DNA of 64,000 nucleotides, from assembly GCA_018816865.1 (NCBI GenBank), contig JAHIUW010000025.1, forward strand, positions 1-64,000. The letters are read 5' to 3'. Positions 1-12,643 of the stretch are shown piece by piece (position 1 is the first letter of the stretch; every line of letters begins with the position of its first letter). The position numbers and the translations under genes are program-made. The stretch comes from Pseudomonadota bacterium (lineage in GTDB: Bacteria > Desulfobacterota > Desulfovibrionia > Desulfovibrionales > Desulfovibrionaceae). A model generated the notes under the pieces. It saw only the letters and a list, made by a program, of their open reading frames with translations, did no database searches and had not been told where the DNA came from.

Positions 1-30
1 GAGCCAGGATCAAACTCTCCAGTTGAAGAG
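1..30 (-). rRNA. rrs: 16S rRNA, 5' end only
   Basis: The first bases are the reverse complement of the nearly universal 16S start, reading GGAGAGTTTGATCCTGGCTC on the minus strand. Only about 27 to 30 bases of the mature gene lie here; the rest is left of the window. The exact mature 5' end is estimated by analogy with other 16S genes. The leader, boxA-like site and promoter array to its right all read in the same direction. Confidence 0.92.
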
Positions 31-80
31 TATTTGATCACGATTCCTGTTTTAGAATCGCAAAGCAAGCTTTCCAGAAT

Positions 81-95
81 GTCTGCATAGCAGAC
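81..95 (-). other. small hairpin in the 16S leader
   Basis: On the minus strand GTCTGC and GCAGAC form a 6 bp stem with a 3 base loop between boxA and the 16S start. It could belong to the leader processing structure. The evidence is the inverted repeat alone. Confidence 0.4.
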
Positions 96-123
96 CTTTA
101 TAATTTCCTAACTCGCTATTTAA

Positions 124-135
124 TTGTCAAAGAAC
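124..135 (-). promoter_or_regulatory. boxA-like antitermination site in the rRNA leader
   Basis: The minus strand reads GTTCTTTGACAA about 95 bases before the 16S start. This resembles the boxA element of bacterial rRNA leaders, which recruits NusB/NusE for antitermination. Its place between the last promoter and 16S is as expected. The TTGACA inside it has no matching -10 at a normal distance, so I do not read it as another promoter. Confidence 0.65.
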
Positions 136-177
136 CTTCCCACCGGAGTGGTACCCTGAGCTTCAGGGCGGACGAAT

Positions 178-206
178 AATGTAACCCTCTTATGGAAGTG
201 AGTCAA
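178..206 (-). promoter_or_regulatory. rrn promoter P5 (closest to 16S)
   Basis: Minus strand -35 TTGACT (201-206), a 17 base spacer, and -10 TACATT (178-183). It is the last member of a regularly spaced array. Initiation about 7 bases after the -10 would give a leader of roughly 140 bases before 16S. Confidence 0.75.
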
Positions 207-259
207 CACCGTTTCGCTTTTTTCAAGGTGCCGCAAACTTTCGTTTGTGGCGAGGGCCG

Positions 260-288
260 TTTTTAACCGGAACAACTTGTCCCGTCAA
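260..288 (-). promoter_or_regulatory. rrn promoter P4
   Basis: Minus strand -35 TTGACG (283-288), a 17 base spacer, and -10 TAAAAA (260-265), followed by a GC-rich discriminator CGGCCCTCGCC. It lies 82 bases upstream of P5 and shares flanking sequence with P3 and P2, so these units look like tandem duplications. Confidence 0.8.
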
Positions 289-349
289 CCCTTTCCGGAA
301 GTTTCTTTCCGGTGCCCGGAGGGAGTAACCTCCCTTTGGGCGAGGGGTG

Positions 350-378
350 TTTCTACTTGGAAGCAGTGCCTCCGTCAA
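350..378 (-). promoter_or_regulatory. rrn promoter P3
   Basis: Minus strand -35 TTGACG (373-378), a 17 base spacer, and -10 TAGAAA (350-355), followed by CACCCCTCGCC. It is exactly 90 bases from P4. The GC-rich discriminator is typical of promoters under growth-rate or ppGpp control. Confidence 0.8.
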
Positions 379-439
379 CCCCTTTCTGGAACTCTTTTTG
401 AAAGAGTTTGCAGGACCTTGGCCCTTGCAACAGAGAGGC

Positions 440-468
440 GTTTTAGCCGGACGAGCCGACCGCGTCAA
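440..468 (-). promoter_or_regulatory. rrn promoter P2
   Basis: Minus strand -35 TTGACG (463-468), a 17 base spacer, and -10 TAAAAC (440-445), followed by GCCTCTCTG. It is again exactly 90 bases from its neighbour P3. Confidence 0.78.
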
Positions 469-537
469 CCTCTATTTCCTTTGTTTTCAAATCCGCTCTG
501 CAGGTGGCCGGTCAGGCCCTCGTCAGCGCGGATGTGG

Positions 538-566
538 TTTATGACTGAACACTCAGCCAAGGTCAA
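538..566 (-). promoter_or_regulatory. possible rrn promoter P1 (most distal)
   Basis: Minus strand -35 TTGACC (561-566), a 17 base spacer, and -10 CATAAA (538-543). It lies 98 bases upstream of P2. The -10 is weaker and the flanks do not obviously match the P2-P4 units, so it is the least certain member of the array. Confidence 0.5.
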
Positions 567-621
567 CATGATTTTACGAAAGAACCCAGACAAAGAACTC
601 AACATCCTGAAATAGTGGATA

Positions 622-650
622 ATAAAAGGGGCAGCCTGCCTTTGACTGCC
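622..650 (-). terminator. Rho-independent terminator after the pseudouridine synthase gene
   Basis: On the minus strand GGGCAG, an 11 base loop and CTGCCC are followed by CTTTTATTAT. It separates the upstream pseudouridine synthase transcript from the rRNA promoters. Confidence 0.7.
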
Positions 651-725
651 CATTATCATTATATATGCTTTTAAAAGTCGCAAAGGACTGGGCTCCTCCA
701 CCGTTGTTTTGGCGGTTCACCAGAG

Positions 726-1613
726 TCAGATCGTCTCCTTGTCCAAGCCCCATTGGTCCCATTCCGACCACTCCGGAACAACCATGGTCTCGAATTCCGG
801 CAGGCTCACGCGGACATGGTGCAGATACATCCGCTCCCCTTCCGTGCCCACGCCGTACAAGGGATCGCCCACGATCACATAACCCACAGCCGCCAAATGG
901 GCCCGGATCTGGTGGCGGGCCCCCATGGTGATTTTCACCCGCACCAGGGTCGTGCCCGTGTCCTGGAAGCGCAGAAGCGGCTCCACGCTGGTCCGCCGCA
1001 AGAAGCTGTAGTCGTCATGATCCCGGACACGCACTTTTTTACGGTCTGCCGTATCCAGGGCTCGGGCCACCGTGAAGGGTTCCGAAACGTCCCCAAGGAC
1101 CAAGGCCAGATAGGTCTTCTCCACCTGTCCGGCGTTTTCCAATTCCTTGTAGCGAGCCTCTGCCTCTTCGGACAGGGCCACGAGCACAAGCCCGGACGTC
1201 GGCAGATCCAGTCTGTTCAACAGCCGGGCATGCTGTCCCGGCCACAGCGCCGGCAAGGCACCTTCCACCGTGAGGCCAGGCCGTCCGGCGATGGTGGCGG
1301 AATGCACCCCGGCGGGCTTGAGCACAGCCGCCATGAAGCCGCTTTTCTGCCCCACCACCCGCACCCCTTCGGGCACCTGCGTCGGGATCTCTTCGACGGC
1401 TGTAGCCTCCAAAGCGCACAGCGACAGTTCCTGCCCAGCCTGAACGCGATAACCCTTGGGACGCGGATAACCGTTCACCAATACTATATAATGTTCCCAA
1501 GCCCGCCTGCGCTCCCGAATCCCCGCCTGGGGGAGCAGAAGCTCCAGTGCCTGGTCCAAACGCTTCCCATGCCAGTCTGCGGGCACCGTGGCCCGCTCAA
1601 GAAAGTTGCTCAT
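726..1613 (-). CDS. RluA-family RNA pseudouridine synthase
   Basis: This 295 residue protein isomerises uridine to pseudouridine in ribosomal or transfer RNA. The family's catalytic segment is visible as LLNRLDLPTSGLVLVAL, with the aspartate of RLD as nucleophile; the usual HRLD is NRLD here. A basic N-terminal part resembles an S4-like RNA-binding domain (GKRLDQALELLLP and a NGYPRPKGYRV segment). I prefer the ATG that gives MSNFLERATV; a TTG 36 bases upstream is open but has no clear ribosome site. Target uridine and exact subfamily (RluA, C or D) cannot be decided. It is a single-gene unit ended by a terminator before the rRNA promoters. Confidence 0.85.
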   Translation of the reverse strand: MSNFLERATVPADWHGKRLDQALELLLPQAGIRERRRAWEHYIVLVNGYPRPKGYRVQAGQELSLCALEATAVEEIPTQVPEGVRVVGQKSGFMAAVLKPAGVHSATIAGRPGLTVEGALPALWPGQHARLLNRLDLPTSGLVLVALSEEAEARYKELENAGQVEKTYLALVLGDVSEPFTVARALDTADRKKVRVRDHDDYSFLRRTSVEPLLRFQDTGTTLVRVKITMGARHQIRAHLAAVGYVIVGDPLYGVGTEGERMYLHHVRVSLPEFETMVVPEWSEWDQWGLDKETI

Positions 1614-1747
1614 GCCTGCACTTGTAGCCCGCTTCGCTCCCCTTGCCAAGGCTCAGCAGCCACCCATCAGCCCAAGAGGCCACCCCTCCTTGATCCGCAC
1701 GCCACCAGGCCTTCAGCCCCGGACACTGCCCCTCCCAAACCAAAACA

Positions 1748-1775
1748 CCGACGCCCCCCCAAAGGGAGGCGTCGG
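1748..1775 (-). terminator. probable terminator after the 1.8-2.8 kb gene pair
   Basis: CCGACGCC pairs with GGCGTCGG, with an inner CCC/GGG and an AAA loop. On the minus strand the stem is followed by GTGTTTTGGTTT. The tract is imperfect, so termination strength is uncertain. The plus side has no T run. Confidence 0.5.
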
Positions 1776-1831
1776 CCGAAGGATAGAGACACACCAGGGA
1801 CTTTGCCCGCACGCCGTATCGGCGCGCCAAA

Positions 1832-2188
1832 CTAGCCCTGTTTACTGACGAAACGGCTGTAGAGCGGCGTAAACTTCGTGGACCTGTGATAGCCCGCCAG
1901 CCGACGCCCCTGTTTCTTGATGCGCGACAGGTCTTCAGCCAGATTGCTGTGCAGGGTCCGTGCCTCGCGGGACAACTTGCCCTGCAGCGATTTCAGTTTC
2001 TGCAGCTTGTCCAGCAGATCTTCCACACTGACCTGTTCCGTCTCCCTGAGGAGCCAAGCTTCCTCAATGAGACGCCCGCGCTCCTGAGCCACTACTTCGA
2101 TGCTTTCGATCTCGCCGGCGGCGAGGCACTCGAGTTCACGCTCTCCAGCATCCAGGGCCTGCTCAAGCAGGTTCAGGCATTGCGGCAT
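1832..2188 (-). CDS. small helical protein, flagellar-chaperone-like (uncertain)
   Basis: This 118 residue protein is almost wholly alpha-helical and charged, with coiled-coil-like heptads (LLEQALDAGERELECLAAGE, then RLIEEAWLLRETEQ) and a basic C-terminal tail. Size and helix pattern recall FlgN/FliT-type export chaperones, but no diagnostic residue confirms this. The start MPQCLNLLEQ follows AAGGCGG; an upstream in-frame extension lies within the preceding gene and is rejected. Its ATG is one base after the stop of the upstream gene, so the two are cotranscribed and probably translationally coupled. Function unknown. Confidence 0.6.
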   Translation of the reverse strand: MPQCLNLLEQALDAGERELECLAAGEIESIEVVAQERGRLIEEAWLLRETEQVSVEDLLDKLQKLKSLQGKLSREARTLHSNLAEDLSRIKKQGRRLAGYHRSTKFTPLYSRFVSKQG

Positions 2189-2189
2189 A

Positions 2190-2798
2190 CTACGCCGCCT
2201 TGGATGCATCGCGAATGTCTTCGCGCACCTCGGCGATGACCTTCTTCCACTTTTCAACGCTGGCGAGGAACTCGTATTCCAGCAAGTCGGCCAGCAGAAT
2301 CCAGTCCTCATTCTCGCTGACTTCGATCATCTCGCTGAACAGCGCCGTGATCTCTTCGATGTTGGTGTGCATGGTTTCGCGATCTTTCAAGCTGAACTCA
2401 TCGCGCAGCACGCCGATCATGCCCAGGAAATCGCGGGTCACGTCCAGCAGGTCCTGGTACAGTTCCAGGGCCTCGGCATCGTCACCCCGGCGGAACTGGT
2501 CAGCCACCGTCCGGCACCCGTGGCCCATGAGGCTCACGACCTTATACAGCTCGCGAGTGATGTTCACGGCCATCTCCGGAACGGGCATGCTGACAATCTC
2601 CACGCTCTCGATCTCTTCGGTGGAAATGTCCTCCGCCTGGTGCGGATAGATCTCGGAAAAAGCTTCCTTGTTCACGAAGACGTCGGTGACCATCCTGTTG
2701 TCCAGGGTGCCGCCCTCCATCACCTTAACCAGCAGATCTTCGAGATTACTGAAGTTATTGACCTTCAGACCGGTCTCTTGCCCATCGATAACAATCAT
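2190..2798 (-). CDS. conserved hypothetical protein paired with the small helical protein
   Basis: This 202 residue protein starts at MIVIDGQETG behind GGAGGAG, which decides the start against a longer reading. The N-terminal 60 residues look like a small beta-rich fold (GLKVNNFSNLEDLLVKVM), and the rest is acidic and helical (EDWILLADLLEYEFL near the C-terminus). There is no signal peptide, membrane segment or catalytic motif. I do not recognise a named family; a protein of this style may be conserved in Desulfovibrio. It is the first gene of a two-gene operon with a downstream helical, chaperone-like partner, which suggests a shared structural or assembly task. Confidence 0.65.
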   Translation of the reverse strand: MIVIDGQETGLKVNNFSNLEDLLVKVMEGGTLDNRMVTDVFVNKEAFSEIYPHQAEDISTEEIESVEIVSMPVPEMAVNITRELYKVVSLMGHGCRTVADQFRRGDDAEALELYQDLLDVTRDFLGMIGVLRDEFSLKDRETMHTNIEEITALFSEMIEVSENEDWILLADLLEYEFLASVEKWKKVIAEVREDIRDASKAA

Positions 2799-2877
2799 CT
2801 CTCTCCTCCTTACAAAGGGAAAATATGTACGCAAATCATGCGTCAAACACTTTCATACAAGTATCATGCCAGCCTAT

Positions 2878-4428
2878 TCACAAACACCGTCTCCAGACCT
2901 CGACCAACCTGGAATACCGCTTGATCAACGCCGAAAGCATCGCAAAATCACTGACCATGGACTGGGACTCCTGATGCCACATGTCTCCCAAGACCGAGAA
3001 CAGGGGGGCTTCGGCCAGCAGGGCCGTCACCCGCTCGAAATTCCCAAGGAATTTGTTCTTGACCATGGGCAGAGGCACCTGCGCCAAGGCTGTGGCCTGT
3101 TCTCCCATCAGAAATAGCAGCTGCCCGGCCTGCCCCAGGACCCTACTCGCTGAATCGGTGACTTCCGCAGAAAGAAGAGAAGCCTTGCGGGGAGGAATCG
3201 GCTCCACCTCGTCGAGAAATTGACGGTAGAAATGGCGCTGCAAATGAACCCAGGATGTCCTGTCGACATCCTCATGGCCGGACAACGATTCAAGCCCCAT
3301 GGTCCCGTCAGGCTGCACCACTGTCTTCCAGACACGGACACCTGTCGAAGCGGGAGCTTTGGCGGCCCACTGGCCTGTCTCAATGAAAGCCCTTATATAA
3401 TGATAGAGGGCATCGGGTTTAACCATTGACCGGCAGGCGTGATCGATCTGGCAACGGTGTCGAAATCCGCAGGGATGGCAGTCCAGGTCAGCCTCAACAC
3501 ACAGACTTCCTGCTGCGTAGGGGCCGGTATCCCAGGGCTGGGCCGTCACCAGAAACACGGCGCAGACAGGTGTGCCCAGTCCTGCGGCCAGATGCATGGT
3601 TCCCGTGTCATTGGTGACCAGCAGGTGCATCTCGGTCAGAACCGCGGCCAGTTGAGTCAGATTCGTGGCGCCGATCAGATTGATATGCGGACAGGAGGCC
3701 TCCCTGGCAAAGCGCTCTCCCAAGTCAACCTCGGCCTGCGTCCCCAGGAGCACCGGCATCAAGCCCTGCTCGTTCCAGATCCTCATGGCCAGAGCCGCGA
3801 AATGTCCAATCGGCCAGCGGCGCTTGTCATCGCTGGCACCCAGTTGCAACGCGACATACCCCGAAGCCTGCCCCTTGGATACGGCCTCAAGACGGGCCTG
3901 CATCTCGGCCTTGGCCTCAATCGTGGGTTCCGCCAGGCGATAGGTCCGCTCGCCGGCACCCAATCCGGACACCCGCCAGAACTGATCCACCAGATTATAC
4001 GGGCTACAGCCCCGGCTACGGGAGGATACCTGCAAAAACGCCGCCCAGGGCGATGAATTCACAGCAAAGCCGAATTCGTCCATGGCAAAGCCCTGCACAT
4101 CCTCCGTCGCAAAGCGGCTGAGCAAACGTCCCGGCAGCGTGGCCGTCAGATTCACCACGCGCTCTGGCGCGAAGGAGTGCAACTCCTCCCCGCCCCACTG
4201 CCAAAACAGATTCAGGGCGCTCTGCCAATCCGCATCCAGACGCGCCAAAAGCGCCGCGCCGGGCAGAGGAAACACCTGATCCACATCGCGCATCAGGGAC
4301 ACTGCCGAGGCAAAATTCTCAAGACACATCAACCCGATTTCATGCCCTTGGGCCTTCAAGCCTGAAATCACGGGCTGGGTCTGCAAAAGATCCCCAAAGC
4401 GGGTCAAATTGATGACGAGGATTCTCAA
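2878..4428 (-). CDS. glycosyltransferase family 9 (heptosyltransferase-like)
   Basis: This 516 residue protein opens with MRILVINLTRFGDLLQTQPV, the usual start of ADP-heptose:LPS heptosyltransferases. A second Rossmann half carries the sugar-nucleotide site (VALQLGASDDKRRWP, then VTNDTGTMHLAAGLGTPVCA). A cysteine cluster (DLDCHPCGFRHRCQIDHAC) follows, as in several relatives. The roughly 150 residue C-terminal extension after residue 370 is helical and not part of the usual 350 residue enzyme. The family adds heptose to the lipopolysaccharide core, though in Desulfovibrio such enzymes may modify other surface polymers. It is monocistronic as far as visible. Confidence 0.85.
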   Translation of the reverse strand: MRILVINLTRFGDLLQTQPVISGLKAQGHEIGLMCLENFASAVSLMRDVDQVFPLPGAALLARLDADWQSALNLFWQWGGEELHSFAPERVVNLTATLPGRLLSRFATEDVQGFAMDEFGFAVNSSPWAAFLQVSSRSRGCSPYNLVDQFWRVSGLGAGERTYRLAEPTIEAKAEMQARLEAVSKGQASGYVALQLGASDDKRRWPIGHFAALAMRIWNEQGLMPVLLGTQAEVDLGERFAREASCPHINLIGATNLTQLAAVLTEMHLLVTNDTGTMHLAAGLGTPVCAVFLVTAQPWDTGPYAAGSLCVEADLDCHPCGFRHRCQIDHACRSMVKPDALYHYIRAFIETGQWAAKAPASTGVRVWKTVVQPDGTMGLESLSGHEDVDRTSWVHLQRHFYRQFLDEVEPIPPRKASLLSAEVTDSASRVLGQAGQLLFLMGEQATALAQVPLPMVKNKFLGNFERVTALLAEAPLFSVLGDMWHQESQSMVSDFAMLSALIKRYSRLVEVWRRCL

Positions 4429-4714
4429 GAATAAATTCCTTTATAATCAGTACATTGAAGTTCAGGAACCACCGCAACTCAGCAAACATGGCTCCAGGAT
4501 GATGAACCTTGGGGGGCAGCAATCAAGAAGCGGGCCAATCCCGTGCCCACAGCTCTGCCGTGGGCGAAGCTTGCAATCCAATGGGTCCTGCAATACCTTT
4601 CCTCATCTGAATCAAATCAACTAGGCAAGGAGCGGAGCGCGGATCGACAACCGACCCCACCCCGCCCAGCACACATTTCGTCGATCAACCCGTCAAACCG
4701 GAGGCACCTCCATT

Positions 4715-6034
4715 ATGGCACTGTTCACCAAGCAAGAAGCTCTCGACTACCACTCCTTGGGCCGCAAGGGGAAAATCGAGGTCATTCCCGTCAAGCCTTG
4801 CCGCACCCAGAAAGACCTTTCCCTGGCCTATTCCCCGGGCGTGGCCCACCCCTGCCTGGAGATTGCCGCCGACCCGTCCAAGTCCTTCGAGTACACCAGC
4901 CGCGGCAACTTGGTGGCCGTGGTCTCCAACGGCACCGCCGTTCTGGGCCTGGGCAACATTGGCGCCGCCGCCGGCAAGCCCGTGATGGAGGGCAAGGGAG
5001 TCCTCTTCAAATCCTTCGCGGACATCGACGTCTACGACATCAACCTCGCCACCGAGGACCCCGACAAGATCATCGAGACCGTGAAACTCATGGAACCCAC
5101 CTTCGGCGGGATCAACCTCGAAGACATCAAGGCCCCTGAATGCTTCTACATCGAGGAGCGGCTCAAGGCCGAGATGAACATCCCGGTGTTTCATGACGAC
5201 CAGCACGGCACGGCCATCATCTCGGGCGCCGGCATCATCAACGCCCTGGAGATCAGCGGCAAGAAGATCGAAGATCTGAAGCTCATCGTCTCCGGCGCGG
5301 GTGCGGGCGCCATCGCCTGCACCAAGTTCTATGTGAGCATGGGCATCCGCAAAGAAAACGTCTTCATGTTTGACTCGCGCGGCCTGCTGCACAAGGGACG
5401 TGCCGGTCTGAACCCCCAAAAACAATTCTTCGCCCAGGACAAGGACCATGGCAGCCTGGCCGATTGCATGAAGGGCGCGGACATGTTCCTGGGCCTGTCG
5501 GTGAAGGACGCCATCAACAAGGACATGGTCAAGTCCATGGGCAAGGCCCCCATCATCTTCGCCTGCGCCAACCCGGACCCGGAAATCACCTACCCGGACG
5601 CCAAGGAGGCCCGCCCCGAGTGCATCATGGGCACCGGGCGCTCCGACTACCCCAACCAGATCAACAACGTGCTGGGCTTCCCCTCCATCTTCCGTGGCGC
5701 ACTGGACACCCGTGCCACCGCCATCAACGAGGAAATGAAACTGGCCGCCGCCAAATCCCTGGCCGCCCTGGCCAAGGAGCCGGTCCCGGACGAGATCTGC
5801 GCGATCTATGGACGCAAGCTTGAATTCGGCCCGGACTACATTATCCCCAGCCCGTTCGACCCGCGCGTACTGGAGTGGGAAGCCGCAGCCGTGGCCCAAG
5901 CCGCCATGGATACGGGCGTGGCCACCATCCAGCTGGACATCCCGGAATACAAGAAATCCCTGCGGGCTCGCCTCAAGAAATCCAAGAAGCGCATTGCCCT
6001 GGTCGTCGATGCCTATGGCATGGATTTCGACTAA
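4715..6034 (+). CDS. malic enzyme, NAD(P)-dependent (oxaloacetate-decarboxylating)
   Basis: This 439 residue cytoplasmic enzyme converts malate to pyruvate and CO2 with reduction of NAD(P). Diagnostic stretches are [16 protein letters not shown], the metal and substrate region [12 protein letters not shown], and the dinucleotide fold [30 protein letters not shown] and [19 protein letters not shown] near the C-terminal third are also characteristic. Length matches the short bacterial form without a phosphotransacetylase domain. GGAGG lies 10 bases before the ATG, and a strong terminator follows. With the fumarase and fumarate reductase genes 5 to 10 kb away it could serve malate/fumarate oxidation or NADPH supply. 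Cofactor preference cannot be read from sequence. Confidence 0.95.
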
Positions 6035-6062
6035 ACGATCCAGCCCTCAACTCACTTGCATA

Positions 6063-6088
6063 GGCCGCCCTCCGGGGCGGCCTTTCTT
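6063..6088 (+). terminator. Rho-independent terminator after malic enzyme
   Basis: GGCCGCCC, loop TCCG and GGGCGGCC are followed by TTTCTT, about 30 bases after the malic enzyme stop. Confidence 0.88.
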
Positions 6089-6200
6089 GTCCTATCCAAG
6101 ACAACCATGCAGGAGAGCACCACCTCCCCCAAAGGCTTGCTCAAATCGCTTCACCCATTGTACGATGGAGATGAGTGGTTCTTTTCGGAGGGGGAAACTC

Positions 6201-8183
6201 ATGCAGACAGCTCTGCGTCATGCCAACACCGTCCTGACGGATCGATTCGAAACCATGGCCCAGACCAGGGGACGACCAGAAGCCGTTGTGGACATCAAGC
6301 AAATAGTCACCCTCGGGGTGGACATCATCCTTGAGCGCGCCCAAGGCCGCGCCCTCAATGCAGCCCAAAACATTGTGGTCTCGGCCATTCATTCCGGCCG
6401 GGTGGATCTGCTGGTGGAGGAAATCGCCGCCGATGTCCAGGATCTGTCCAAGGCCCGCAACCAGAAGTATCTGCTGGAGGTCCCCACCCGCCACGGGTCC
6501 CTGACCTTCCTGCCCGACGTCCTGATTCCGGCTGACGAGGCAACTATCCACCGCTGGCAGGGATTCCTGGACAGCTTAAATGCATTCAGCCTGCGCGGTG
6601 AGGACCCGGTCACCTTGCTTCGGGGGCGCATCCCCTTCCGCGAAAAAGTCTGGCTGGGGGATCTTGTTTTTGCTCCTGGACCCTCCGTCACCGTCATCCA
6701 GGATATCCAGGAGGTCAGGGGAAACCTGATGCTGCGCAGCCACACACTGGCCATAAAGCACCAACTCTCCCTGCAGGGCAGCCTGTACATCGACGCCGAT
6801 CAGCTGGGCAATTCCCCGTCCTGCATCAAGGCACTCAAAGGTTATCTGCGTATCTATTCCGAGCGCATCAAGTCCGTCGACGATCTTAACGTCTCAGCAG
6901 AAATCCTGAGAGAATGGGGAGTCACCCAAGGGACACTCATATTTATAAATGATCGCCGCGCTTACCGTTTTCTTGAGGAAGAAGGCCCTGACGGACTCAA
7001 GCTGGCCCTGGTGGAAAGCCCCGGCGGGCAGGACCTGGACATACGCTCCTTGCGCTATCTCTGGAACGGAACCAGCTGGGCGCAGTTCCACCGCAAGCTG
7101 CCACCCGACATCGCCTACCTGCTGCTACGCCAGTTCCGGCATGTCTGCGCCCTCTTGGGTCTGGGCGAAGACTTCATCATCAGGGAGCGAGACGCCGACC
7201 TGTCAGTGGAAGCAAACACGGAACGCATCGTCGCCCTGCTGGACCTGGTCCAGGGCTGTCACAGTACCAAGGCGGCCGAGCAGTTCCCAGAGGAGATACG
7301 GCAACTCGTCGAGACCATCCGAGGGCATTTACTCCGGCTCAAGACCCTGGCCCTCGGCGAAAAACAGGAATTCTACCGGGACATGAGCCAGGTTTCCGAG
7401 GACATCAAGGAGACACTGGACAAACTCAGCGACAGCAAGCTGACGCAAATCGCCCAAGCCATCGGCAACCACTGCTGGCGCATTGATCGCAGAGGATTGA
7501 AGTCCGACAGCGATTATCTCAAGATCCTGGAGGGCGGGGGCCTGGATTTTGGACACGTCCTCGGCACAGCTGGCCGAGCCGTGGTCTTCGTGAACAACCT
7601 CTGCCGCTCCCGCCCCATGCGCGCCCGCGCCGCTGAGGCCATCGCCGATATCCGGCGCGACCTGAAAGAGATCCTTGGACGGACGGCCGAACAGAATCTA
7701 CTCCTGAACCTGCTGAAGTTCCCCGATCATGAGACCATCCAACAACTGTCCATGAAATACCCGGGGCGCAAGCGATTCGTCGAGGATCTGACCAAGCATC
7801 TGGAACTGCTCAACCAGAAGCCCCCCCTCGAATTGCTCCAGGACTTCGCCACACGCCCCTTCAAGACGGTTACGCCAGAGCTGGATGTGGATCGCGCGCT
7901 CCTGCGCCGAGTGCTCTCCCTGGGCAAAGGCACCTTGGACAACATCTTCAGCAGCGACATCCCCGGCTACGGCACCCAGCACGGTCAGCTGCTCATGCTG
8001 GCCCTGGCCGTGAACATGCGCTCTTTCCTGACGGAAGAACTCAAGGGCCTCTCCATGGATACGGACCTGGAGCTGCCCTCTGTGCTCGTAGCACGCATCC
8101 AACACAAGGTGGGGCGCTTTCGCGGGGTCATCCCGGTCTTCAACCGCCTCTGCATCCATCCCGAGAGTACGACTCCGGCCTGA
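6201..8183 (+). CDS. large protein of unknown function (660 residues)
   Basis: Translation starts at MQTALRHANTVL behind GGAGGGGG; a longer upstream reading overlaps malic enzyme in another frame and is rejected. I see no signal peptide or membrane helix. Residues about 150-240 contain short beta repeats (GNLMLRSHTLAIKHQLSLQ, GSLYIDADQLG, KGYLRIYSERIK) that could form a beta-solenoid-like or bactofilin-like section. The C-terminal two thirds are helical. No catalytic motif is recognised. It is a single gene between the malic enzyme terminator and the AraC regulator, with composition like its neighbours, so it is probably a resident gene. Confidence 0.75.
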   Translation: MQTALRHANTVLTDRFETMAQTRGRPEAVVDIKQIVTLGVDIILERAQGRALNAAQNIVVSAIHSGRVDLLVEEIAADVQDLSKARNQKYLLEVPTRHGSLTFLPDVLIPADEATIHRWQGFLDSLNAFSLRGEDPVTLLRGRIPFREKVWLGDLVFAPGPSVTVIQDIQEVRGNLMLRSHTLAIKHQLSLQGSLYIDADQLGNSPSCIKALKGYLRIYSERIKSVDDLNVSAEILREWGVTQGTLIFINDRRAYRFLEEEGPDGLKLALVESPGGQDLDIRSLRYLWNGTSWAQFHRKLPPDIAYLLLRQFRHVCALLGLGEDFIIRERDADLSVEANTERIVALLDLVQGCHSTKAAEQFPEEIRQLVETIRGHLLRLKTLALGEKQEFYRDMSQVSEDIKETLDKLSDSKLTQIAQAIGNHCWRIDRRGLKSDSDYLKILEGGGLDFGHVLGTAGRAVVFVNNLCRSRPMRARAAEAIADIRRDLKEILGRTAEQNLLLNLLKFPDHETIQQLSMKYPGRKRFVEDLTKHLELLNQKPPLELLQDFATRPFKTVTPELDVDRALLRRVLSLGKGTLDNIFSSDIPGYGTQHGQLLMLALAVNMRSFLTEELKGLSMDTDLELPSVLVARIQHKVGRFRGVIPVFNRLCIHPESTTPA

Positions 8184-8258
8184 GTATCCTCTCCGCAAGA
8201 TTTTACAAAACTCCCGACCGTGATTATGCCATGAGCACAGCAAAGACCGGATTAAACC

Positions 8259-9116
8259 ATGATCATCGCCGCAGACCACACAAAGGGCTCCACCCTGACC
8301 GACGAAACCCGCATCACGCTGCCCCGCGTGCACGGGGTCGAGGTGTTGACGGCGCGCTTCACTGACCAGCGATTCTCCAAGCACTTCCACCGCCGCTACG
8401 GGTTGGGCGTCATTGAGCGCGGGGCCATGGCCTTTTCCTTCCTAGGACAGAATTTCGTGGCCGACGCGGGCAGCGTGAACCTCACGGTGCCCGGCGAGAT
8501 GCACGACGGCCACGCCGCCACCCGCGAGGGCTGGGCCTACCGAATGCTGTACCTGGACCAGGAAGTGGTGGAACGCGCCGCCTCGCAGGCTGCGGGACGG
8601 CCGGTGGCCCCACCCGATTTTGCCACGGGGGTCATCCATGACCCACAATTGGCCGCACGAGTCCATGCCTGCCACCTGATTATGGAAAACGCCCAGGCAT
8701 CGCTGTTGGCTCAGCAGTCGGCGCTGCTTTCCATGCTCGGCCTGTGGATCAAGCGCCATGCGGCAGACCGCATCACGAACCTGCGCACCGGCCCGGAGCC
8801 TTCGGGAGTGGCCCTGGCCCGGACCTTCATGGACGAACACTGCGCACAGGACATCTCCCTGGACGAACTGGCTGGACTGGCCCACCTCTCACCCTATCAT
8901 TTTCTGCGGGTCTTCCACCGTGCCGTGGGTGCCCCACCCCACGCCTACCTCATGAACTCCCGCATCCGCAGGGCCAGACAACTGCTGCGCACACAGATGC
9001 GCCTAGCCGACATCGCCCAGGAAACCGGCTTCAGCGACCAGGCTCATTTCACCACGACCTTCAGACGATTCACCGGACTCACCCCCGGCAACTACCGCAA
9101 GCATCTACAAAACTGA
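8259..9116 (+). CDS. AraC-family transcriptional regulator
   Basis: This 285 residue regulator has an N-terminal cupin-like sensing domain (KHFHRRYGLGVIERG, histidine-rich as usual) and a C-terminal double helix-turn-helix. The second motif is ADIAQETGFSDQAHFTTTFR and then RFTGLTPGNYRK, the AraC signature. It ends 62 bases before an EamA exporter gene on the same strand, so it probably controls that exporter. The AraC/EamA pair is a common arrangement for efflux or metabolite export. The ligand is unknown. Confidence 0.92.
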   Translation: MIIAADHTKGSTLTDETRITLPRVHGVEVLTARFTDQRFSKHFHRRYGLGVIERGAMAFSFLGQNFVADAGSVNLTVPGEMHDGHAATREGWAYRMLYLDQEVVERAASQAAGRPVAPPDFATGVIHDPQLAARVHACHLIMENAQASLLAQQSALLSMLGLWIKRHAADRITNLRTGPEPSGVALARTFMDEHCAQDISLDELAGLAHLSPYHFLRVFHRAVGAPPHAYLMNSRIRRARQLLRTQMRLADIAQETGFSDQAHFTTTFRRFTGLTPGNYRKHLQN

Positions 9117-9178
9117 CCGCCTCTGACGGGCTACAACCCTGGGAACATCGGCTTCGGCCGTCACCACCAGGAGAATCC

Positions 9179-10084
9179 ATGCCCCAGACCTCACCCTTTC
9201 GCGCCTATTTCGACCTGACCATGGCCATGATCCTGGTCGGCAGTTCCGTTGTCGCCGGAAAATTCATGATCCTTGAGCTGCCGCCGCAGCTGGCCTCGGC
9301 CCTGCGCTTTGCCTTCGCCGCCCTGCTCATCGTCCCGTTACTGCTGATCCTCGAGGGCCTTCCCAGACTTTCGCGCCGTAGCTGGTGCATCCTGTTCATC
9401 CAGGCCCTGTGCGGATCGTTCCTGTTCAATGTCTTCCTGCTGAAGGGCCTGACCATGACCGGAGCCGGGGCCGCAGGTATCATCACCAGCACCACCCCCG
9501 CCTGCATGGGGCTCATTGCCCTGACCGTGCTGCGCGAGCCGCTCGCCCCCCGCGCCATGGCGGGCATCCTGCTGTCCATGACCGGGGTCATGGCCGTGAA
9601 CATCCAGGCAACGGGCCTGGATACGAGCCCCGACATGGGGACCCTGGCGGGCAACGGGCTCATCCTGTGCGCGGTGCTGGCGGAGGCGCTGTTCCTGTTG
9701 CTGCGCAAAACCGTGCCCGAACCCATCTCCCCCCTGGCGGTCGCCACCATCATGACCTGCTTCGGCCTGGCCCTGTTCACCCCCGGAGCCATCGCCGAGT
9801 CCAGAGGCTTTGATTTCCACGCCGTGTCCTGGGCCACATGGGGCACCGTGGCCTACTACGGGGCCTTCGTCACCGTGGCGGCCTATCTGTTCTGGTTTTC
9901 AGGGGTGGTGCGCGTCAGCGCAGGGACGGCGGGGGTCTTCACCTCGATCATCCCCGTCTCGGCGTTGGCCCTCTCGGCCCTGCTGCTGGGGGAACCCGTC
10001 ACAGGGGCGCACGTCGGCGGCTGTGGACTGGTCTTGGCGGGCATCTGGTGCATCAGCGCGCGTCCCAGCAAGAGTGCGGCCTAA
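9179..10084 (+). CDS. EamA-family (DMT superfamily) transporter
   Basis: This 301 residue inner-membrane protein has about ten hydrophobic helices in two repeated halves of five, the usual EamA/RhaT layout. It starts at MPQTSPFRAYFDL behind CAGGAGA. Seen motifs include the early SALRFAFAALLIVPLLLI helix and the second-half AAYLFWFSGVVRVSAGTAG. The family exports amino acids, drugs or other small metabolites; substrate cannot be told. It is probably cotranscribed with, and controlled by, the AraC-type regulator just upstream. Confidence 0.92.
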   Translation: MPQTSPFRAYFDLTMAMILVGSSVVAGKFMILELPPQLASALRFAFAALLIVPLLLILEGLPRLSRRSWCILFIQALCGSFLFNVFLLKGLTMTGAGAAGIITSTTPACMGLIALTVLREPLAPRAMAGILLSMTGVMAVNIQATGLDTSPDMGTLAGNGLILCAVLAEALFLLLRKTVPEPISPLAVATIMTCFGLALFTPGAIAESRGFDFHAVSWATWGTVAYYGAFVTVAAYLFWFSGVVRVSAGTAGVFTSIIPVSALALSALLLGEPVTGAHVGGCGLVLAGIWCISARPSKSAA

Positions 10085-10140
10085 AACAAGGAGAGGCGGT
10101 CTGCGCTCCAGAGACCAGCACGCACACGGGAAAGAATTGG

Positions 10141-10941
10141 TCAGTCGAAAGAGCGATCGTAGCGATGGGCGTAGAGATTGGCGAGCAAGCGGGCGTAGAT
10201 TCCGTTAGCCCGAATCTGAGCCAGGCCCTTGTTGAACAAGAGCATCAATGCCTTGTTCTCCTCCACTTGCTTCGTGAGCAGCAGATGATAGTGACGTCTC
10301 TGGATCACCCTGTGATAAGAGGCAATCCTTTTTCGTTCCTCCTCGATCAGTGTCGTCTGGATGTAGAAACGCCCGACCTGCGTCACCAGAGGCACGGCGT
10401 CAACCCGGCCAGACAACAATCTTCTGAACAGGGAGGTATAGCTCACCGCGCGCTCTATGGTCAGGATGCCGTCCTTCTCCGCCTCGTCAAGCAGCGGGTA
10501 TGCCGCAGAGCTGACGCCCCCAAGGACCTTGCCACGCAGGTCCTCGATGCTCAACCAGACCACGGGATTGTCTTTGCTGTAGAACAACACCTCCGAGTCC
10601 TCCAACACCAGATCACTATAGATGAAGGAGGCCTCTCGCTCAGGCGTTTTTATCCAGACAAGGGTCCCGTGCAGGACATGGCCATCTTCGTCCTCGCCTT
10701 GCAGGGCATTGGCATAGGCCCTGGACCAAGGGTAGAATTCGTATTTCACATCGACGCCAACGGACTTGAAGGCCTCCTGCACCACATGCGAGGCGAAACC
10801 GTAATGCGGCAGATGCTCGGAGAGGTACGGAGGCCATTCCCCATTGGTCAAGCGCACCAGATGCGCGGCACGCGCAGGGGAGCACACCAACCCCAGCGTC
10901 AGGCAGACGAAAAGAACCATCCAATAAAATCGAGCGATCAC
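10141..10941 (-). CDS. periplasmic solute-binding protein, amino-acid-binding family 3 type
   Basis: This 266 residue protein has a clear signal peptide (MVLFVCLTLGLVCSPARAA) and then the family 3 opening VRLTNGEWPPYLSEHLPHYG. A typical binding-fold segment follows (VDVKYEFYPWSRAYANALQG). No permease or ATPase gene is adjacent, so it may be an orphan sensor or binding protein rather than part of an ABC importer. In Desulfovibrio many such orphans exist. The ligand is unknown. It is convergent with the EamA gene, with only 56 bases between them. Confidence 0.82.
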   Translation of the reverse strand: MIARFYWMVLFVCLTLGLVCSPARAAHLVRLTNGEWPPYLSEHLPHYGFASHVVQEAFKSVGVDVKYEFYPWSRAYANALQGEDEDGHVLHGTLVWIKTPEREASFIYSDLVLEDSEVLFYSKDNPVVWLSIEDLRGKVLGGVSSAAYPLLDEAEKDGILTIERAVSYTSLFRRLLSGRVDAVPLVTQVGRFYIQTTLIEEERKRIASYHRVIQRRHYHLLLTKQVEENKALMLLFNKGLAQIRANGIYARLLANLYAHRYDRSFD

Positions 10942-11153
10942 GTTACCCCCTCAGTCCAGTATCCGGCACCGCCAACCCGAAGTCCCTTGCCTCTCAATTC
11001 CAAGACCAAGGACCCGTGTCCGGGTTGGGTGCTCAACGTCTTTATACCTATCTGAAGACCATATGGATACATCTTGCGGATCAACACTTCAAACCTTGAT
11101 CGAAAAGAGAGCTGATGATCAGCTACGCCAGCTTGGTCGGGCTGCACAGCAAA

Positions 11154-11183
11154 CGCAAAAAGGCCGCCCCAGGGGCGGCCTTT
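11154..11183 (-). terminator. terminator of the fumarase genes
   Basis: GGCCGCC, a short loop and GGCGGCC, with TTTTTGCG after the stem on the minus strand. A shorter T run on the other side could let it act in both directions. It lies about 65 bases after the fumarase beta stop. The rest of the roughly 300 base gap to the solute-binding protein gene shows no further feature. Confidence 0.8.
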
Positions 11184-11246
11184 GCTATCGAAAATCCAAA
11201 GAGAATGATTTGGGATGACAGAGTCAGGGGCAACACCCCTGACAGA

Positions 11247-11807
11247 TTAGTCCTCCAAGCCCGCGGCCTTCAAGTTCGGCACGGCGTAGAGTTCGCCACC
11301 GTGGCAGTCATTGATGACCAAGACCGGGAATTTCTCCACCGTCAGTTCGCGGATGGCCTCGGGACCGAGTTCGTCAAAGGCGATGACGCGGGCGGCGGTG
11401 ATGCACTTGGAGAGCAGCGCTCCGGCCCCGCCGGTGGCCCCGAAGTACACGGCCTTGTGCTCCTTCAAGGCGGCCTTGACCTCTTCACTGCGTTTGCCCT
11501 TGCCGATGGAGGCCTTTTGGCCCAAGGCATGCAGCCGCGGGGCGTAACTGTCCATGCGGTAGCTGGTGGTGGGCCCGGCCGCGCCGATGGGACGGCCCGG
11601 AGGCGCAGGGCTTGGACCCACGTAATAGACAATGGACCCCTTGAGCTCGAAGGGTGTCTGTTCGCCCTTGTCGATCAGATCCATCAACCGCTTGTGGGCG
11701 GCGTCACGGGCCGTATAGATGGTGCCGGTGATGAACACCACGTCCCCGGCTTTCAGGGGAATGATGTCCGCATCGCTCAGGGGAGTCTTCAAAGTGTATT
11801 CGGCCAT
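11247..11807 (-). CDS. fumarate hydratase class I, beta subunit (C-terminal domain)
   Basis: This 186 residue subunit, with the alpha subunit, makes the oxygen-sensitive iron-sulfur fumarase that hydrates fumarate to malate. Characteristic pieces are AGDVVFITGTIYTARDAAHKR, VYYVGPSPAPPGRPIGAAGP (substrate loop, with GPTTSYRMD following) and VYFGATGGAGALLSKCI. It starts at MAEYTLKTPL; the start ATG shares its A with the alpha subunit's TAA stop, so the two are translationally coupled. The split two-gene form is typical of anaerobes; in E. coli FumA/FumB the two parts are fused. Confidence 0.93.
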   Translation of the reverse strand: MAEYTLKTPLSDADIIPLKAGDVVFITGTIYTARDAAHKRLMDLIDKGEQTPFELKGSIVYYVGPSPAPPGRPIGAAGPTTSYRMDSYAPRLHALGQKASIGKGKRSEEVKAALKEHKAVYFGATGGAGALLSKCITAARVIAFDELGPEAIRELTVEKFPVLVINDCHGGELYAVPNLKAAGLED

Positions 11808-12643
11808 TAGATCACCACCTCCTGATGCCGGATGGAATGGCACTGCACGTTGACGGCCAGGGGCAGGCTGGCGAGGTGGCAGGGGGCCATCTCGATTTTC
11901 ACGCCCAGGCAGGTGGTCTTGCCGCCCAGGCCCATGGGGCCGATGCCCAGCGCGTTGACGGCTTCCAACAGTTCGTCCTCAAGCTTGGCGATGGCGGGGT
12001 CGGAATGCCTGTCGCTCAGGGGACGCAGCAAAGAGCGCTTGGCCAGGATGGGCGCACGCTCGAAGGTGCCGCCGATGCCGATGCCGAGCATGGTGGGCGG
12101 GCACGGGTTGGGCCCGGCCTCGGCCACGCGGTTGACCACGAACTGTTTGATGCCTTCCCAGCCCTGGGCCGGAGACAACATGGTCACGCGACTCATGTTC
12201 TCGGAACCGCCGCCCTTGGCCATGAAGTGGATGGTGATCTTATCGCCGGGCACAAAATCAAAGTGGATGATGGCCGGGGAGTTATCCTTGGTATTGGCGC
12301 GGGTCATGGGGTCACAGGAGGACTTGCGCAAATAGCCCTGCTCATAGCCCTGGATCATGCCCTGGGTCACGGCATCCTTCAGGCTGCCCTCAATCACCAC
12401 ATCCTCGCCGATGTCCACGAAGAATACGGCCAAGCCGCAGTCCTGACACAGGGGCAACCCGGTCTCCTCGGCCATGGCCGAGTTCTCCAGCAACTGACGG
12501 AAGATCTCCTTGGCGGCCGGGGAATCCTCGTTCGCCATACGATCCCTGAACGCCTGCTTGACGTCTTCGGGCAACTTCAGATTGGCCTCACGGCACATGG
12601 CCGCCACGGGGGCGATCACGTCCTGGGCCTTGATCGTTCTCAT
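11807..12643 (-). CDS. fumarate hydratase class I, alpha subunit (N-terminal domain)
   Basis: This 278 residue subunit carries the three cysteines expected to ligate the catalytic [4Fe-4S] cluster, in GLPLCQDCG, RKSSCDPMTR and GPNPCPPTMLGIGIGGT. GGAGAG precedes the ATG of MRTIKAQDVIAP. It lies downstream of the fumarate reductase genes on the same strand after a 317 base gap that holds a palindromic repeat, so it may be cotranscribed with frdCAB or have its own promoter. Together the genes interconvert malate, fumarate and succinate. Confidence 0.94.
   Translation of the reverse strand: MRTIKAQDVIAPVAAMCREANLKLPEDVKQAFRDRMANEDSPAAKEIFRQLLENSAMAEETGLPLCQDCGLAVFFVDIGEDVVIEGSLKDAVTQGMIQGYEQGYLRKSSCDPMTRANTKDNSPAIIHFDFVPGDKITIHFMAKGGGSENMSRVTMLSPAQGWEGIKQFVVNRVAEAGPNPCPPTMLGIGIGGTFERAPILAKRSLLRPLSDRHSDPAIAKLEDELLEAVNALGIGPMGLGGKTTCLGVKIEMAPCHLASLPLAVNVQCHSIRHQEVVI

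Follow-up and report, generated by a model that had tools for sequence, protein, structure and literature searches.

Five predicted tandem promoters ahead of an rRNA operon in a Desulfovibrionaceae genome

Five tandem promoters of the sigma-70 type very probably feed a single rRNA operon in the DNA analysed here (the window: 64,000 nucleotides, positions 1 to 64,000 of contig JAHIUW010000025.1, from a member of the Desulfovibrionaceae). They appear as five pairs on the minus strand, each formed by a TTGAC box, a 17-base spacer and a -10 box, ahead of a 16S gene which is truncated at the window edge. An earlier note on this DNA had described five -35/-10 pairs with 17-base spacers: All five are found on the minus strand where it had placed them, with exactly this spacing (its -35 positions are the low-coordinate ends of the boxes). 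The steps between -35 boxes, from P1 to P5, are 98, 90, 90 and 82 bases. By a tandem rRNA promoter array we mean at least three promoter-like units that immediately precede 16S and are oriented like it, and this is what the window contains:

538-566, minus strand: P1, TTGACC, 17 bases, CATAAA; -35 box at 566-561, predicted start G at 529
440-468, minus strand: P2, TTGACG, 17 bases, TAAAAC; -35 box at 468-463, predicted start G at 431
350-378, minus strand: P3, TTGACG, 17 bases, TAGAAA; -35 box at 378-373, predicted start G at 341
260-288, minus strand: P4, TTGACG, 17 bases, TAAAAA; -35 box at 288-283, predicted start G at 251
178-206, minus strand: P5, closest to 16S, TTGACT, 17 bases, TACATT; -35 box at 206-201, predicted start G at 169
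1-18, minus strand: first bases of the 16S rRNA gene, 5' end at 18-1; the contig stops here

P2, P3 and P4 had also been taken for duplicates of each other, a reading which the sequence bears out only weakly. Over 90 bases, excluding TTGAC and TA, identity is 0.40 between P2 and P3, 0.47 between P3 and P4 and 0.30 between P2 and P4 (0.25 ± 0.045 for shuffled bases), which speaks weakly for duplication, but no direct repeat of at least 12 bases is found in positions 1-900. A recent duplication is not supported, given the low pairwise identity and the lack of such repeats. Duplicated units are plain in relatives: Locus L180 has two near-identical ones, and L089 has alternating ones.

The anatomy of the unit was obtained from 69 units with a mutual difference of at least 20%. 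The search imposed TTGAC, the spacing and TA, and in part also the fourth -10 base, A; everything else was free. A is found in 61–90% of the units at each of the six positions from -10 to -5 before TTGAC, and 39 of the 69 units have at least five A in the seven bases upstream of the -35 box, a tendency rather than a rule. This A-tract gives the logo the A+T-rich UP-element character of the E. coli rrn P1-type promoters. The base after TTGAC is G in 64% of the units, and the -10 box reads TAGAnR, with G at the third place in 80%. The discriminator ends in pyrimidines (97–100% at the third- and second-last base, 99% at the last) and, with the start predicted from the sequence, has a mean G+C of 0.68, with at least five of its eight bases G or C in 57 of the 69 units. 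All five window promoters have a G nine bases after the -10 box. Across the 69 units this base is C in 55% and G in 41%, the predicted start therefore varies within the family.

The E. coli rrn P1 promoters have Fis sites and, unlike the units seen here, a consensus-like -10 box. They combine strong recruitment with an unstable open complex, which results in fast escape and in control by ppGpp and the initiating nucleotide. The units resemble them in the A-tract, the strong -35 box, the weak -10 box and the GC- or pyrimidine-rich discriminator. A UP element and a discriminator rich in G+C are reported for rrnB P1, where transcription starts nine bases downstream of the -10 box (PMC7822876), and the tandem promoters of E. 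coli rrn are described as about 120 bp apart (PMC4696680). E. coli rrn has two promoters, whereas the window has five.

Most likely, to judge from the sequence, the array consists of real, stringently controlled tandem rRNA promoters. The A-rich stretch just before the -35 box, which we read as a proximal UP element, would contact the C-terminal domain of the RNA polymerase alpha subunit, and together with a near-perfect -35 box it would ensure good polymerase recruitment. A -10 box short of consensus, followed by an 8-base pyrimidine- or G+C-rich discriminator, would make the open complex unstable. Recruitment combined with such an unstable complex would allow fast escape when nutrients are plentiful, while ppGpp or low initiating nucleotide would shut the promoters off. 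With promoters stacked about one polymerase footprint apart, initiation rates would add, and transcripts from the upstream promoters would cross the downstream ones, giving a common leader with boxA. We infer from these motifs that each promoter fires, that the rates are additive and that control is stringent. Selection for initiation at a very high or a graded rate, which the earlier note read from the regular spacing, may be behind such an array.

The nucleotide sequence of the array is hardly conserved, only one of 16 relatives matched (E 0.005). As far as comparison of genomes can tell, the plan of the array is nevertheless conserved in relatives, even though the letters are not. Among 297 genomes from the order, 15, belonging to 8 of 55 genera and counting the window's own, have three TTGACN18TANA motifs at 80–110 base steps, an undercount because a 16S start was found in just 66 of 191 genomes. 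The reversed pattern, used as a control, has no match in the 297 genomes. Upstream regions of 16S were collected in 78 rows, which correspond to 75 distinct places (73 of the 126 16S places, the window and one further place). In these rows the rRNA strand has 124 strict TTGAC-N18-TA sites and the opposite strand has 2. Removing three duplicates, which leaves the 75 distinct places, lowers the first count to 120 and keeps the second at 2.

A promoter profile trained on the 69 units, leaving out the genus under test and with a threshold of 10, gives a similar picture. We dropped eight of the 78 rows, with less than 600 bases upstream of 16S, and one duplicate; rRNA-strand sites less than 110 bases from 16S were excluded in order to drop boxA, while those on the control strand were kept. 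Each of the 69 rows that remain extends 600 bases or more upstream of 16S; together they have 171 sites on the rRNA strand and one on the opposite strand. After two more duplicates were removed, there are 168 and one, in 67 distinct rrn upstream regions. One promoter is found in 14 of these regions, two in 27, three in 10, four in 10 and five in 6, so that 53 of the 67 have at least two and 26 at least three. By genus, 19 of 23 have at least two and 10 of 23 at least three. The steps peak at 90–110 bases, 68 of 102 being of 90–109 bases.

With the strict motif, locus L184 has seven units, L089 (Solidesulfovibrio alcoholivorans DSM 5433) has six before its edge, and L045 and L183 have five. The units of L089 are worded as in genus g25, which belongs to the family of the window. 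Solidesulfovibrio and other genera of the family have the same unit as the window, with steps of 98–105 bases, about 10 bases longer than those of the window, and their arrays differ from it in a higher G+C, stronger A-tracts and more uniform TAGAnR boxes. The CATAAR type of -10 box found in P1 recurs in the arrays of genus g47 (L225, L227, L232, L234). The -10 box closest to 16S ends in TT, as in P5, in 12 of 20 chosen array loci, the window included. We also observed that whole arrays of genus g47 use CATAAA, CATAAG or CATAAC instead of TAGAnR, the preferred -10 box therefore differs by genus.

The leader region has one further match in its own genome, at the end of contig C26 (second rrn copy, L002). 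This copy has TTGACC-17-CATAAA, as in P1, and 97 bases further on TTGACG with a 17-base spacer to TAG, where the contig ends. P1 and P2 are thus common to both rrn copies, the second one being cut after P2. The earlier note would have given up its reading if the array were absent from other rrn loci and from relatives; the second copy keeps P1 and P2, and 53 of the 67 regions have at least two promoters. The tandem rRNA promoters that it proposed are backed by the anatomy of the units, the strand bias (168 versus 1), the architecture in relatives and the second rrn copy as far as it is assembled. A 16S family search of the own genome gave no match, since its assembly lacks rRNA genes. The only other genome of the genus, G001, has no match to the array, but it lacks a recognisable 16S start and therefore cannot bear on its conservation.

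Not all five sites need be useful promoters. A sigma-70 consensus scan of positions 1-1000 reported P5 alone among the five, because the -10 boxes of P1–P4, which depart from consensus at the last base, are poor. With the leave-one-genus-out profile, P2, P3 and P4 score 26.3, 35.3 and 24.6, while P1 and P5 fall below the threshold of 10. Some sites in the array may therefore be weak or dead, and promoters are described as unequally used in published arrays (PMC10218544, PMC4983044). Going further, one or two sites might fire usefully, the others being worn copies or polymerase-loading sites which add little. We consider this rather unlikely: P2–P4 retain the A-tract, the -35 box, the 17-base spacing and the discriminator despite an identity of only 30–47% between them, arrays of at least three persist in 10 of the 23 genera, and similar weak types of -10 box are found throughout the arrays of relatives.

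Another feature of the array is the presence of hairpins at the predicted transcript starts:

491-533, minus strand: hairpin at the predicted 5' end of the P1 transcript, -22.7 kcal/mol, z -3.73
408-430, minus strand: hairpin at the predicted 5' end of the P2 transcript, z -2.74 (45-base segment)
314-341, minus strand: hairpin at the predicted 5' end of the P3 transcript, z -3.01 (45-base segment)
230-251, minus strand: hairpin at the predicted 5' end of the P4 transcript, z -2.77 (45-base segment)
153-169, minus strand: hairpin at the predicted 5' end of the P5 transcript, z -0.91, weaker than the other four

The stem sequences of these hairpins are unrelated to one another. A stem of at least six pairs, starting at most nine bases into a segment taken from about the predicted start, is found in 56 of the 69 units, compared with 25 expected from shuffles, and in 29 of 36 (14 expected) without the over-represented genus g25; the p-values of these tests are too small, since the units are related. 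Overall RNA stability was rejected as evidence for hairpins, it is not specific: The mean z is -1.21 at the predicted 5' ends and -0.94 in the control just upstream (p 0.40), and the position test alone separates the segments. Further peaks of the position profile lie at offset 10 and between -50 and -40, and g25 is mainly responsible for them. The first of these corresponds to units which fold across the -10 box (31 of 33 g25 units, 12 expected). In g25 and Solidesulfovibrio (L045, L183, L184, L089) the -10 box often lies within a short inverted repeat, for example GCG-TAGAAA-CGC.

It is possible, and we put it forward only tentatively, that the rRNA control region of the Desulfovibrionaceae is made of repeating modules, each with a promoter and a working 5' hairpin that stays in place at +1 but drifts in sequence. 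Such hairpins might, for example, stop backtracking or R-loops and so let trains of polymerases from upstream pass occupied downstream promoters. The repeated 5' hairpin is in any case a candidate for a role in promoter read-through. These same hairpins, and the inverted repeat across the -10 box in g25, are what would be expected if the repeat served mainly for binding or structure (an architectural protein, DNA dyads or RNA hairpins of the nut type), the TTGAC and TA boxes being secondary. This appears very improbable: Most of the information is at promoter positions (A-tract, TTGAC, the 17 bases, TAGA and the discriminator, TTGAC and TA being imposed), the hairpin sequences vary from unit to unit and the boxA-like element is found once per operon in the arrays inspected.

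Chance matches in an AT-rich leader are practically out of the question: Single weak sigma-70-like pairs are indeed common (the looser pattern TTGACN{15,19}TANNNT has 7 matches in the window, 2.55 expected), but TTGACN18TANA matches the 64 kb exactly at four sites, and these are P2–P5, within one stretch of 290 bases (mean 0.30 and maximum 2 in 100 shuffles of the 64 kb). The ratio of 168 to 1 between the two strands in relatives refutes this explanation.

Tandem rRNA promoters are published for other bacteria as well as for archaea. In M. chelonae, five successive promoters are reported upstream of a single rRNA operon (PMC10218544), and in M. fortuitum rrnA there are four (PMC2904383). Mycobacterial rrnA has several promoters of the sigma-70 family in tandem, as here, in a different phylum. 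Up to five promoters of differing strengths are described ahead of one rRNA operon in H. cutirubrum, and three mapped rRNA starts in Haloferax volcanii (PMC4983044). The haloarchaeal arrays are like the window in promoter number, but they have archaeal promoters and basal factors and an independent origin. Arrays of four or five rRNA promoters are already published for mycobacteria and haloarchaea, and that of the Desulfovibrionaceae joins them. A search for work on Desulfovibrio rRNA promoters in the open-access literature, judged by titles and abstract openings, gave none.

The hint in the earlier note that such arrays are rare was too strong: At least three promoters per operon are found in 10 of the 23 genera, and outside the order the triple pattern often lies by a 16S gene or a contig end. 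Named genomes contain at least 117 stretches with this pattern, many with Firmicutes names among the matches listed. Of the 80 stretches given as loci (L057-L136), a 16S start lies within 900 bases in 20, the locus ends within 400 bases downstream in 42, and neither is the case in 18; a locus end near the array is typical of assemblies broken at rRNA genes, it is not a proof. Arrays of at least three promoter-like units are probably common outside the few cases studied. Multi-promoter rrn operons look more common than textbooks suggest.

Many genomes of the group have few rrn copies, and multiplying the promoters ahead of one operon may be their way to a strong rRNA expression. Promoter number does not fall significantly as rrn copies increase (27 genomes, Spearman rho -0.23, p 0.24, uncorrected for relatedness). 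Here each 16S start in an assembly was counted as one copy, and many of the assemblies are incomplete. With one to seven units per operon, these genomes form a clean natural series in which to ask if tandem promoters are additive, hinder one another or share out the work between growth conditions.

The leader between P5 and 16S contains one further element:

111-133, minus strand: boxA-like leader element TTCTTTGACAATTAAATAGCGAG, containing a sixth TTGACA, at 130

We take this stretch to be the boxA antitermination signal. Short matches to the leader in relatives come mostly from it, with up to 97–100% identity over 23–29 bases. A sixth promoter at 130 was rejected: The TTGACA found there belongs to the boxA-like element. 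In the arrays of relatives which we inspected, this element is present once per operon; a by-eye look for a boxA in every unit found just GGTTCTT-like fragments, in genus g25. A scan of positions 1-12000 of the window against Rfam gave no match, which is expected, as few 16S bases are present. Beyond P1 there is a terminator-like hairpin (651-629) and then a gene (726-1649) whose product has an RNA pseudouridine synthase domain. The sequence TATATAATGATAA is present in both rrn copies (window 629-670, minus strand; L002 1395-1415), about 100 bases or more upstream of P1, and in the window a GC hairpin that ends in a T-rich tail comes after it. This region may represent a further start (P0) or a terminated RNA of very short length.
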